This document shows, piece after piece, positions 33,972 to 38,171 of a stretch of DNA of 45,517 bases; position 1 is the first letter of the stretch, and each line of letters opens with the position of its first letter. The position numbers and the translations under genes were made by a program. The DNA comes from Myxococcales bacterium (GTDB lineage Bacteria; Myxococcota_A; Polyangia; Polyangiales; Polyangiaceae). The notes under the pieces are model-generated. The model had not been told where the DNA came from and did no database searches. It saw only the letters and a program-made list of their open reading frames with translations. The stretch covers positions 1 through 45,517 of the forward strand of contig PLYU01000366.1 of NCBI GenBank assembly GCA_003153495.1, in the 5' to 3' direction.

Positions 33972-34586
33972 ATGAAAACCCTCCTCGCGCAGGCTCTTCT
34001 CGCCGGGTGCGCCGCCGCCTGGGCCTGCGGCGGAAGTCGTGACGCCTCCGGAGGCGCGACGTCTCCGGTCGCCTCGGCGGCCCCGGCGTCGCTCACCTCG
34101 GATTCCGGAGGCGAAGGCCCCGCGGCGGCCGCGGCATCGACGACCACTGTCGCCCCGGGCGAGGGCGGTGATCTCCAGGGCACGAAGCTGACCGAGACGC
34201 ACGCCGTCGCCTCCGCCTCCGCGAGCGCCGCCGCGCCTCCGAAGGGGGTGCACACCCACGATCCCGGCCGCGGGCCGCAGGACATCAGGGCGATCATCGT
34301 TGGGCACCGCGACGAGGCGCGCGCTTGCTATGATCGCGGGCTCAAAGACCACCCGGGCATCGAAGGCGACCTCGTCGTTCAATGGACCATCGATCCCAAA
34401 GGTGCGGTGACGGACGCGTCCCTCGACATGTCCCGAAGCACGCTCGTCGAGCCCACCGTGGTCTCTTGCATCGAGGACGTCGTGAAGCGCGTGCAGTTCG
34501 CGCCCAGCGCCGGCGGCTTCGAGACGAAGGCGTTCTACCCTTTCAACTTCCACCCGCGCCGCGATCAGCCGCGCAAGGGCCCCTGA
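33972..34586 (+). CDS. Lipoprotein with AgmX/PglI C-terminal domain
   Basis: A 204-aa exported lipoprotein. The signal peptide ends AAAWAC (Cys19), followed by an Ala/Ser/Gly linker and a C-terminal TonB-like domain: DIRAIIVGHRDEARACYDRG, GDLVVQWTIDPKGAVTDAS, VVSCIEDVVKRVQFAP. This is the AgmX/PglI C-terminal domain of Myxococcota, found in gliding-motility and envelope proteins, where it acts like the C-terminal half of TonB. It ends four bases before the convergent DUF2063 gene. Confidence 0.87.
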   Translation: MKTLLAQALLAGCAAAWACGGSRDASGGATSPVASAAPASLTSDSGGEGPAAAAASTTTVAPGEGGDLQGTKLTETHAVASASASAAAPPKGVHTHDPGRGPQDIRAIIVGHRDEARACYDRGLKDHPGIEGDLVVQWTIDPKGAVTDASLDMSRSTLVEPTVVSCIEDVVKRVQFAPSAGGFETKAFYPFNFHPRRDQPRKGP

Positions 34587-34589
34587 GCC

Positions 34590-35420
34590 CTACTCGCCGA
34601 GGCGAATCGCGGTCAGCCATCCGTTCGCCGTCCACTGCTGGAACCAGGTTGCGAGCCTCGCGCCGAGCTCCGAGAGGTTCATCGCGGCGCCCGGTCGCGC
34701 AACGCCTTCGCAAGCAGCGCCCAGTGGAACCCCCGCGCGGAGCGCGTCGAGCAGCTCCCAACCCGCCGCTTCGATGGAGACGGCCCGCAAGAAGCACGCG
34801 GCATCTCGCCATATCACCAGGTGAGTGTCCACGGCTTCCAGGCGCGCCGGTGCCGCTCCGTGCTTCACGGCTTCTCTCAGCTCGTGCACCGGGTGCGCCA
34901 GAGCGAGCAACCTGACCGACGGGTGAAAGACGAGCCGCACGTGCGGCCACGTCTCCTCCGCCGTAGCCGCGAGCACGCGCGGGTCGAAGGGCTGCGCGTC
35001 CGGCGCATCGAACGCTTCCATGAACGCCCAGTCGAGTCGCGCGGCATCCAGTGCGAGCCTGTCCCCGGTCCAGGGGGACTGGCTCGACAGGAACGCGGGC
35101 AGCTCCGCGCCGAGCCGCTGCAGATCCCAGGTCCGGGGCGGGTGCGCCTGGAGATACCGCGCGGCAAGATCCCGGAAGCCTCCCCGCCCCCCGAGCACCC
35201 ACGTGAGCGTGGGGAAGTCCTCATCCAGGCTCTGGAGGTGACGCGCCCAGAACTGCTCGCGGTACACCTCCAGGCGATCCGCAGGGGTCATCCCGCGGAC
35301 GCTCGGCGCGACGAGACGCTCGACGCTCGCGGCCACGTCCGGGTTCCCGTCCACCGACGCCTCGCGTCGGACGGCCTCTGCGACGAACCGCTGAAGGTCG
35401 GCTAGGGAGAGGTCGCCCAA
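34590..35420 (-). CDS. bufC: DUF2063 protein, partner of the MNIO enzyme (BufC/HvfC-like)
   Basis: A 276-aa protein with the DUF2063 N-terminal domain: LSLADLQRFVAEAVRREA, VYREQFWARHLQSLDEDFPT, LAARYLQAHPPRTWDLQRLG, and a helical C-terminal domain (ATAEETWPHVRLVFHPSVRL). In bufferin, HvfABC and related RiPP operons this protein forms a complex with the MNIO enzyme and delivers the precursor. Start: TTG at 35420, inside the end of the MNIO gene (19-bp overlap) with GGAGAAGG five bases before it; the frame upstream to 35582 is a shadow. It is the third gene of the operon. Confidence 0.9.
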   Translation of the reverse strand: MGDLSLADLQRFVAEAVRREASVDGNPDVAASVERLVAPSVRGMTPADRLEVYREQFWARHLQSLDEDFPTLTWVLGGRGGFRDLAARYLQAHPPRTWDLQRLGAELPAFLSSQSPWTGDRLALDAARLDWAFMEAFDAPDAQPFDPRVLAATAEETWPHVRLVFHPSVRLLALAHPVHELREAVKHGAAPARLEAVDTHLVIWRDAACFLRAVSIEAAGWELLDALRAGVPLGAACEGVARPGAAMNLSELGARLATWFQQWTANGWLTAIRLGE

Positions 35421-36280
35421 CTGGCCTTCTCCGCTGCCTCGCTCCCGAGTGTCTCGTCCCGAGCGCCCCGAGCTCTCGCCACCTCTCCGTTCAGCACGTC
35501 CCAGGTCGGGATGTCCTCGTCCCACTCGATCAGGGTCGATACGGGCCCGGTGCGGCGAACCGCGCGTCGATAGAGCTCCCACACCTGGGCGGACACGCAG
35601 TCCGAATGGGTGTCGAGGAGGTAGCTCCCCTTGTCGGTGTGTCCCGCGAGGTGGATCTGCACGATGCGATCGGCGGGAATCGCGTCGATGTATGCGTTGG
35701 CGTCGAAGCCGTGATTGTAGGCGCTGACGAACACGTTGTTCACGTCAAGGAGTACGCCGCAATCCGCGCGCCGGACGACCTCGGCGAGAAACTCGTGCTC
35801 GGGCATGGTGCTGTCGCGAAACTCCAGGTACGAGGAGACGTTCTCGAGCGCGAAGGGCACGCTCAGCTCTCCTTGCACGCGCTTGACTCGCTCCACCACG
35901 TGCGCCAGCGTCCCTGCCGTGTAGGGAAGCGGAAGCAGGTCGTGAACGTCGATGCCTGCGACTCCGGTCCAGCAGAGGTGGTCGCTGCACCAGGGAGCGT
36001 CCACGCGCCGCACGAGCGCCCTCAGCCTCGCGAGGTACGTCAGCTCGATGGCGTCGGCCCCTCCTATCGAGAGCGACACCCCGTGGGGCACCACGCGATA
36101 GGTCGCGCGAACGGCCTCGAGGTTGGACCGCTGGATGCCGCCTTCGGCGAGGTAGTTCTCGCTGATGACCTCGAACCAGTCCATCGCAGGTCGCTCGCGC
36201 AGCACGTGAGCGATGTGCGGTGCGCGCAGCCCGACGCCGACGCCCAGGTCGGGAATCGCGTGTCGCTTGCGATAGTCCAT
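35402..36280 (-). CDS. bufB: DUF692 multinuclear non-heme iron oxidase (MNIO), BufB/HvfB-like
   Basis: A 292-aa TIM-barrel enzyme that modifies cysteines in a RiPP precursor using two or three iron ions. Family blocks are complete: GVGVGLRAPHIAHVL, WFEVISENYLAEGG, PHGVSLSIGGAD, WCSDHLCWTGV, VPFALENVSSYLEF, CGVLLDVNNVFVSAYNHGFD, IVQIHLAGHTDKG, LDTHSDCVSAQVWELYRRAV and IEWDEDIPTWDVL, holding the His, Asp and Glu iron ligands. Start ATG 36280. It sits between its precursor gene, separated by a hairpin, and the DUF2063 gene. Enzymes of this family convert Cys to oxazolone-thioamide, thiooxazole or other products; which applies here is open. Confidence 0.93.
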   Translation of the reverse strand: MDYRKRHAIPDLGVGVGLRAPHIAHVLRERPAMDWFEVISENYLAEGGIQRSNLEAVRATYRVVPHGVSLSIGGADAIELTYLARLRALVRRVDAPWCSDHLCWTGVAGIDVHDLLPLPYTAGTLAHVVERVKRVQGELSVPFALENVSSYLEFRDSTMPEHEFLAEVVRRADCGVLLDVNNVFVSAYNHGFDANAYIDAIPADRIVQIHLAGHTDKGSYLLDTHSDCVSAQVWELYRRAVRRTGPVSTLIEWDEDIPTWDVLNGEVARARGARDETLGSEAAEKASWATSP

Positions 36281-36308
36281 CGCACCCGTTTCTCTTACAA
36301 AATGCGAA

Positions 36309-36338
36309 CGCCAGGTCTCACATACGGACGACCTGGCG
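36309..36338 (-). promoter_or_regulatory. Hairpin between precursor and MNIO genes (attenuator-like)
   Basis: On the minus strand, CGCCAGGTC (36338-36330) and GACCTGGCG (36317-36309) form a perfect 9-bp stem with a 12-base loop, followed by TTCGCATTTTGT. It lies in the 71-bp gap after the precursor stop. This is the usual place for a partial terminator that makes more precursor than enzyme mRNA. Confidence 0.6.
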
Positions 36339-36351
36339 CGTTCCCGACGTT

Positions 36352-36582
36352 TCAGTACTTGGGGGCTGCCGCACCTGAAGCGCTGCAGGACGACTTGCCG
36401 CCAGCAGCACCGCTGGCAGCCGGAGCCGCCGCGCCGCCGCTCGCGCTGCAGGACGCCTTGCCTCCCGCCGCCGAGGGATCCGCCGCGCCGGGCTGAGCGG
36501 AATTGCCGCCGCCGCACGCCGCCGTGGAACCGATGAGCATCCCCGCAACCGCCGACACTGCCAGAGCCTTAGCAACGTTCAT
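36352..36582 (-). CDS. RiPP precursor peptide with two GGK(A/S)SCSASG repeats
   Basis: A 76-aa peptide, likely substrate of the adjacent MNIO enzyme. Residues 1-22 are a hydrophobic signal peptide (KALAVSAVAGMLIGSTAA) ending at Cys23, a possible but weak lipobox (TAAC). The rest is Gly/Ala/Ser-rich and contains two repeats, GGKASCSASG at 40-49 and GGKSSCSASG at 61-70, each with one Cys (45 and 66). Known HvfA/BufA-type precursors also have a Sec signal and repeated Lys-Cys motifs but use EGKCG or other patterns. The ATG follows GAGGAGG by eight bases, a strong site. It is the first gene of the operon. Confidence 0.8.
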   Translation of the reverse strand: MNVAKALAVSAVAGMLIGSTAACGGGNSAQPGAADPSAAGGKASCSASGGAAAPAASGAAGGKSSCSASGAAAPKY

Positions 36583-36739
36583 AACTATCGCCTCCTCGCT
36601 CCGTATAGAGCGTCTCCACTATGTGTGTCCCGGCACTGTCCGGGGCGGCTGAGGTTACCCACGTATCGCTCGAGGCGAGGACTTTTTTTTCGGCACCGCC
36701 CCAACCTGCGCCTGAGCCGGACACATTCGCCACACCTTG

Positions 36740-37322: not shown

Positions 37323-38171
37323 ATGCATCGTCCCAAGCTTCGCATGGGATTGTTTCTGGTAGCCGTGGTCGCGTCTTTCGCACTCGTCGGCTGCGGACAT
37401 AGCGAGGACGAGTGGCAGCAAGCGCAGCGAGACATCGCCAAGCTCAAGGCCGATCTCGACGCGGCCGGCAAGCGTCATGCTGACGACGAGCAGAAGTACG
37501 CCGACGCCCAGCAGCAGATCGAAGACCTGAAGGCCAAGCTCAAGGATCTCGGCGTCGGTCTCTCGCGGTCGGAAGAGGAGAAGTCGAAGCTTCGTCAGGC
37601 GATGTCCGAGTACGAAGCCCGCCTCAAGCAGCTGGACGACATGAAGGCTCGCTTTCGAGACCTGAAGGCGCGTCTCGACAAGCTCACCAGCGTCGGGTTG
37701 AAGGTCGTGGTGCGTAACAACCGCATGGTCATCCAGCTGCCCGGAGATATTCTCTTCGATTCCGGGAAGGACACGCTCAAGCCGGACGGGCGGAAGATCC
37801 TCAAGCAAGTGGCCGATGTCATCAAGGGCGACTCGACCCTCAGCACGCGTAGCTTCCAGGTCGCCGGGCATACGGACAAGGAGCCCTACGGGGGCGTCTA
37901 CTACGACAACTGGGGCCTCAGCGTCATGCGCGCGCGCCAGGTCGTGACCTTCCTGGTCGCTCCTGACAAGGGGACGGACGCCAAGGGGATCCCCACCGGC
38001 GGCGGTCTCGATTCGGCCCATCTCGCGGCCGCGGGGTACGCTCAGATGGATCCGGTGGCCGGAGCCGTGGACCAGCAGACGCCGGCCGAAGAGGCCAAGA
38101 ACCGCCGGGTCGAGCTGGTCCTGCAGCCGAACGTGGAAGAGATGCTCAACCTGAAGGACCTCGCGAACTGA
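37323..38171 (+). CDS. OmpA-family peptidoglycan-binding lipoprotein with coiled coil
   Basis: A 282-aa outer-membrane lipoprotein. Signal peptide MGLFLVAVVASFALVGC ends in the lipobox LVGC. Residues about 25-115 are a heptad coiled coil (DEQKYADAQQQIEDLKAKLK). The C-terminus is an OmpA/MotB domain: ILFDSGKDTLKPDGRKILKQ, VAGHTDKEPYGG, NWGLSVMRARQVVTFLV, NRRVELVLQPN, with the diaminopimelate-binding Asp and Arg kept. An insert (GTDAKGIPTGGGLDSAHLAA) lengthens the last loop. Start ATG 37323 is preceded by GGAGAG. It probably tethers the outer membrane to peptidoglycan and is followed 25 bp later by the phosphatase gene. Confidence 0.92.
   Translation: MHRPKLRMGLFLVAVVASFALVGCGHSEDEWQQAQRDIAKLKADLDAAGKRHADDEQKYADAQQQIEDLKAKLKDLGVGLSRSEEEKSKLRQAMSEYEARLKQLDDMKARFRDLKARLDKLTSVGLKVVVRNNRMVIQLPGDILFDSGKDTLKPDGRKILKQVADVIKGDSTLSTRSFQVAGHTDKEPYGGVYYDNWGLSVMRARQVVTFLVAPDKGTDAKGIPTGGGLDSAHLAAAGYAQMDPVAGAVDQQTPAEEAKNRRVELVLQPNVEEMLNLKDLAN

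Follow-up and report, generated by a model that had tools for sequence, protein, structure and literature searches.

What does a precursor, MNIO and DUF2063 cassette make when its precursor carries none of the cysteine patterns of the known bufferin-type families? The question is raised by three genes at positions 34,590 to 36,582 of the window, by which we mean the whole 45,517-nucleotide stretch analysed here, from a Myxococcales bacterium. A sequence-only reading had assigned them to a bufferin/HvfABC-type operon and suggested that the precursor might belong to a new class whose cysteines are modified in a way of their own. We consider it probable that they form a three-gene bufferin/captophorin-type RiPP cassette with a copper-buffering product, the precursor being a positional ortholog of the BufA2-type bufferins that is lipidated and has fewer cysteines. 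Judged from sequence, the cassette appears to be a new variant of the bufferin type, poor in cysteine, probably lipidated and related to BufA2, with a core motif of its own. Its features and two flanking markers are these:

34590-36582, minus strand: whole cassette, in the gene order precursor, MNIO, DUF2063 partner
36352..36582, minus strand: precursor gene, 76 aa, with a lipobox-like STAAC23 signal and two core repeats
36514..36582, minus strand: signal/leader region, residues 1-23 of the precursor, conserved across the locus
36436..36465, minus strand: first core repeat, GGKASCSASG, residues 40-49, with Cys45
36373..36402, minus strand: second core repeat, GGKSSCSASG, residues 61-70, with Cys66
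36298..36340, minus strand: hairpin and short T-run in the precursor-MNIO gap, terminator- or attenuator-like, with similar hairpins in most orthologs
35402..36280, minus strand: MNIO enzyme of the BufB family, 292 aa, matching PF05114 and NF050167
34590..35420, minus strand: DUF2063 partner with RRE-like domain (PME-type 1), 276 aa, TTG start, by PF09836 match and fold model
36652..36691, minus strand: conserved promoter-like element (an A-tract and GATACGTGGGTAACCT), lying about 70-110 nt before the start codon of the precursor gene
33972..34586, plus strand: convergent neighbour with an AgmX/PglI-type C-terminal domain, a syntenic marker outside the cassette
37326..38171, plus strand: OmpA-family lipoprotein, a syntenic marker outside the cassette

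The gene order and the enzyme and partner matches bear out the operon type proposed earlier, and the family assignments that had been called firm are so. The MNIO matches PF05114 (E=8e-107) and scores 355.8 bits against NCBIfam NF050167 (MNIO_BufB), above the curated cut-off of 310, as against 242 bits for the HvfB model, below its cut-off of 360. Residues H66, D100, H101, E146, N147, D179, N182, H210, D223, H225 and E252 show no or almost no variation across 95 relatives, and the protein can be aligned to the solved DUF692 proteins 3bww, TglH and MbnB. The partner scores 62.4 bits against PF09836 (gathering cut-off 27.2), a family matched by the partners of 59/59 relatives. Its C-terminal domain reaches 23.5 against PF22106, under the cut-off of 27, and a phmmer search of the partner against PDB sequences gave no match, but its AlphaFold model (mean pLDDT 95) matches TglI (8hi7) and NGO1945 (3dee) best and also, weakly, the RRE of TbiB1 (5v1v); by modelled fold, not by sequence, the partner appears to have a C-terminal RRE-type domain. 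The overlaps described earlier hold in part: the MNIO and DUF2063 reading frames overlap by 19 nt, whereas the precursor and MNIO genes are separated by a 71-nt gap with the hairpin inside it. Inspection of the neighbouring genes found no copper or other metal gene beside the locus. The window genome also has a second, distant MNIO (G000:C326:13904-14674; L104), about 40-44% identical, with similar HvfB and BufB scores under both cut-offs and with neither a precursor nor a DUF2063 partner recognised alongside.

The precursor (MNVAKALAVSAVAGMLIGSTAACGGGNSAQPGAADPSAAGGKASCSASGGAAAPAASGAAGGKSSCSASGAAAPKY), read from an ATG with AGGAGG upstream, is as the sequence-only reading had described it: 76 aa long, its signal lipoprotein-like and its repeats, each with one Cys, different from EGKCG. 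The cysteines lie at 23, 45 and 66. The two repeats stand 21 residues apart and are identical at 23/30 nt. At the matching place in G001, from the same genus, the gene immediately before an MNIO of 75% identity encodes a precursor of 72% identity that has three GK(A/S)SCSA units. In an alignment of 73 codons between the precursors of the window and of G001, its nearest relative, the differences number 8/8/33 at codon positions 1/2/3, which corresponds to an NG86 (Nei-Gojobori) dN of 0.12, a dS of 0.88 and a dN/dS of about 0.14; the repeats are under purifying selection, and a chance reading frame is excluded. In profile searches the precursor matched no Pfam or NCBIfam family, and against the BufA2 model NF050166 (curated cut-off 60 bits) there was no match at E<=10. 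It has two core cysteines and the lipobox Cys in place of the six (or twelve) conserved cysteines of BufA2, and profile score and Cys count together exclude it from that family. Three other identities fell away as well: Buf1 (DUF2282) for want of a Pfam DUF2282 match, Buf_EGKCG/oxazolin because the EGKCG repeat is absent from the sequence, and the CxxxxC family because the core cysteines are 21 residues apart.

Relatives were drawn from about 90 MNIO loci gathered from the order, plus ten from a named collection, several of which are the same loci and hence not independent; the nearest in that collection are from uncultured Myxococcales. Most loci have a small secreted Cys-motif precursor upstream of the MNIO; a lipobox-like Cys is present in many, and an N-terminus like MNIGKTLAVSAVSGMLAG..GCGG is common to the precursors nearest the window. 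Under a rough motif rule, 62 loci have BufA2-like cores (for example CKGKNECKGKGGCK), most of them containing 6-9 Cys beyond the signal, and at 16 loci the core is reduced. Even the BufA2-like relatives score only 11-32 bits against NF050166, under its cut-off, the best of them 27-32 bits with E values down to 1e-7. Ten precursors (nine of the 16 reduced cores together with L012, a row moved by hand) have in common the motif K-x-[SG]-C-[SGN]-[GA], in which Ser, Gly or Asn, not Lys, follows the Cys. Lys stands at -3 in 30/30 of their core cysteines (shuffled mean 9.5%, maximum 28%), a count that includes repeats and related genomes, and so is not one of independent cases, and that comes from precursors grouped after inspection. 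The check proposed by the earlier reading, a search for the repeat beside orthologous enzymes in other Myxococcota, thus returned a conserved repeat and leaves that idea standing. Intermediate cores occur in L050 (KASCSGKGSCSGKGSC), L014 (KASCNGKSSCSG), L062 and L012, and those of L050 and L014 retain the C-x5-C spacing of BufA2. The precursors of genus g15 (L016 and others) have three core cysteines, with Lys at -3 in 0/18, and fall in a different region of the tree. Beyond the set, many matches to the A1 profile proved to be either BufA2-like proteins or unrelated ones. We found no description of a K-x-S-C motif in the literature searched, which covered the papers except for supplementary tables holding hundreds of small MNIO-adjacent reading frames.

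The surroundings of the cassette speak to where this core came from. The full order at the locus is GppA, OmpA-lipoprotein, cassette, AgmX-like, kinase, HNH: in the window, G001, G022 and G013 the cassette is flanked on one side by the genes for Ppx/GppA and an OmpA-family lipoprotein and on the other by an AgmX-like gene, which the kinase and HNH genes follow where found. G127, G028 and G130 show part of the same order. An SC-type core occupies this locus in the window, G001, G022, G013 and G127. In G138 (L167) an 8-Cys BufA2-like cassette sits between the same flanking genes, and L113, L114 and L116, also with BufA2-like cores, share flanks with the window locus; the same-locus 8-Cys precursors (CKGKNECKGKSGCK) go with enzymes of the same clade and have the conserved N-terminus. 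Because of these common flanks we regard the SC-type and BufA2-like cassettes as positional orthologs in which the core was remodelled while leader and enzymes were kept. The cassette is missing from between the same flanking genes in G006; in G002, a congener, we found no MNIO, and the stretch adjoining its OmpA-family gene also has no such cassette, which is therefore dispensable. Upstream of the cassette, and divergent from it, L166 (1702-4196), L167 and L113-L116 have a gene for a TrmB-family regulator and one for a 538-aa protein unmatched in Pfam; both are absent there in the window, and G001 retains the 538-aa protein only.

In the MNIO trees the SC-type enzymes are nested in the clade associated with BufA2-like precursors, and several changes of core type are needed. 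The SC-type precursors may not be a single clade, and one clade for the ten K-x-x-C precursors was not rejected (AU p 0.30; 0.18 without L035). A direction from many cysteines to few would be the simplest reading of this nesting, seen in unrooted trees. A single position (251, I/V) divides the MNIOs of SC-type precursors from those with the nearest BufA2-like precursors, and it was the only candidate when we looked for enzyme residues that might explain the core switch, none making a convincing specificity site. Of the earlier idea of a separate class and a separate modification, the distinct motif holds up; the same-locus 8-Cys precursors, the intermediates and the single enzyme difference together favour a reduced variant with the same chemistry.

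Cys23 sits in a lipobox-like STAAC, acceptable yet not the canonical L-A-A-C, and most relatives keep a Cys at the matching place as AGC or AAC. Cys23 is probably lipidated, by analogy with the family: some 16% of Buf2 precursors are predicted lipoproteins (PMC12452194), and the lipidated oxazolin NedA has been produced and shown to be triacylated and modified (PMC12636315). In five positional orthologs the mean pairwise identity of the signal region is 0.55, against 0.33 for the signal of the adjacent OmpA-like lipoprotein in the same genomes. Such conservation would suit a region that also serves the RRE-type domain of the partner as leader; preliminary results on Buf1 likewise point to the signal peptide as leader, and recognition by BufBC seems to involve it (PMC12452194).

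Two putative expression signals accompany the cassette. The hairpin between precursor and MNIO genes recurs in most orthologs, mostly with a T-run (it is strong in the window and in L010, L011, L042, L043, L045, L050 and L062), its sequence varying while its shape is kept, and we read it as a leaky terminator that may allow an excess of precursor. The promoter-like element (A-tract, then GATACCTTTGTAGCCT) is likewise found upstream of the precursor in most orthologs, and in the window its second part begins 85 nt before the ATG. Seven zero-mismatch matches were found in ten genomes, all upstream of this cassette; as the pattern was drawn from these cassette sequences, matches there are expected, and the finding is their absence elsewhere. 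A metal regulon sharing the element was looked for and set aside, since the ten genomes held no other perfect copy and one-mismatch matches stayed at the level of a reversed-pattern control.

All characterised MNIO-PME1 systems install 5-thiooxazoles at Cys, with a loss of 4 Da each, and these pairs prefer small residues after the Cys while tolerating Ala, Arg or Thr before it (PMC12668002). The window cassette pairs an MNIO and a PME-type 1 partner with a Cys-motif precursor, as the sequences are read here, and so would count as a captophorin cassette, and K-x-S-C-S/G suits the known chemistry by analogy. FonBC blocked every change tried at position 5 except Gly to Ala (PMC12668002), so that Ser after the Cys lies outside the contexts tried with a characterised enzyme. 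In the pathway we envisage, the precursor would be made in excess of the enzymes owing to the terminator-like hairpin after its gene, and the RRE-like domain of the partner, whose fold the model supports, would bind the signal/leader region. The MNIO would then oxidise Cys45 and Cys66 to 5-thiooxazoles by four electrons (-4 Da) each, reading, to judge from family and motif, a K-x-[SG]-C-[SGN]-[GA] context that is missing at the lipobox Cys23, where STAACG is without the Lys found before the core cysteines. Sec export and lipidation of Cys23 by the lipoprotein pathway would follow, Gly at +2 probably directing the product to the outer membrane, and the thiooxazole thiols might bind Cu(I)/Cu(II), giving the envelope a buffer against copper, as the family suggests. 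By analogy with these systems, conversion of both core cysteines to 5-thiooxazoles and buffering of copper in the envelope are the most likely outcomes.

Among known systems the BufA2/Buf2 bufferins (NF050166; PMC12452194) come closest, with the same precursor-MNIO-DUF2063 order, a BufB-type enzyme, a signal peptide, GK-x-x-C spacing, a known lipoprotein version and, in the same bacterial family, positional orthologs with BufA2-like cores; the window differs in having two core cysteines instead of 6-12, Ser in place of Lys after the Cys, Ala/Ser/Gly-rich linkers and a precursor unmatched by the BufA2 profile. With the Buf_EGKCG/oxazolins and captophorins (HvfABC, FonABC, NedABC) it has in common the MNIO and PME-type 1 partner and a repeated motif in which a single Cys is preceded by Lys and followed by a small residue, as well as, through NedA, lipidation; however, its motif is K-x-S-C-S rather than E-G-K-C-G, and its enzyme scores as BufB, not HvfB. 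The RiPP-lipoproteins DybA/chryseobasin also start from an MNIO-modified lipoprotein precursor (predicted as such in the window), but with an MNIO of another subfamily (ChrH) and the motif CPACGMG, and the main text of the paper mentions no DUF2063 protein.

The motif invites a bolder account, which we hold only tentatively: K-x-[SG]-C-[SGN]-[GA] might serve the MNIO as a recognition code of its own, having arisen at a fixed locus through core replacement with leader and enzyme kept, so that one MNIO-PME1 lineage would modify unlike cores and keep the modified cysteines apart from the lipobox Cys, possibly with a different metal or modification. That the same enzyme family makes another product on K-x-S-C (an oxazolone-thioamide, Cys excision, a new group), or that the metal is not copper, seems unlikely to us; the motif resembles neither EGKCG nor BufA2, its Cys being followed by Ser/Gly/Asn and not by Lys, small MNIO groups are known to make varied products and no copper gene lies near the locus, but the enzyme is placed within the clade associated with BufA2-like precursors, a single position telling the two groups apart, and every characterised MNIO-PME1 pair yields 5-thiooxazole.

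The locus could also be losing its function, its cysteines decaying and its peptide little modified or not at all. The missing cassettes of G006 and G002 and the drop in core cysteines from 7-8 to 2-4 or fewer could be taken that way, yet the low dN/dS, the invariant Lys at -3, the threefold motif of G001 and the intact enzyme and partner make decay improbable. It is more improbable again that the small lipoprotein is no substrate and its gene merely co-transcribed, the MNIO acting on something else: three related MNIO loci do lack a recognisable adjacent precursor, but almost all the others are preceded by a secreted Cys-motif peptide, with the same N-terminus near the window, and the gene order matches bufABC.

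If the preferred reading of a Cys-reduced positional ortholog holds, one chromosomal site offers a natural series, from 8-Cys BufA2-like precursors to one with two core cysteines on a nearly constant leader and enzymes. The series would make testable what an MNIO that forms 5-thiooxazoles recognises in its precursor, and how small a number of modified cysteines suffices for copper binding. In the window precursor, structural work would gain a compact substrate with two sites that is probably lipidated, and the bufferin-type cassettes of Myxococcota would be extended by a new core motif.

Several further loci add to the variety around these enzymes. The congener G001 has elsewhere a second, canonical 6-Cys BufA2-like lipoprotein cassette (L086, G001:C546), while L019, L063 and L075 (G020, G119 and G118) are clade-related MNIO and DUF2063 pairs with no recognisable adjacent precursor. 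Odd MNIO-adjacent precursors include one of 150 aa with repeated CGAK units (L089, G133), one with GPNGCGSKKKK repeats (L096, G008) and a long Pro/Ala-rich one with APGKCAPGKCGG (L038, G024). Finally, L170:4998-5264 (G115) and L133 (G116) encode a lipoprotein that combines KHHC motifs with a tail rich in His (HHDEPEAGAHAHVPE) and in L170 adjoins a PepSY_TM protein and a weak TRASH-domain match in a stretch where no MNIO homolog was seen; it is possibly a metal-binding lipoprotein.
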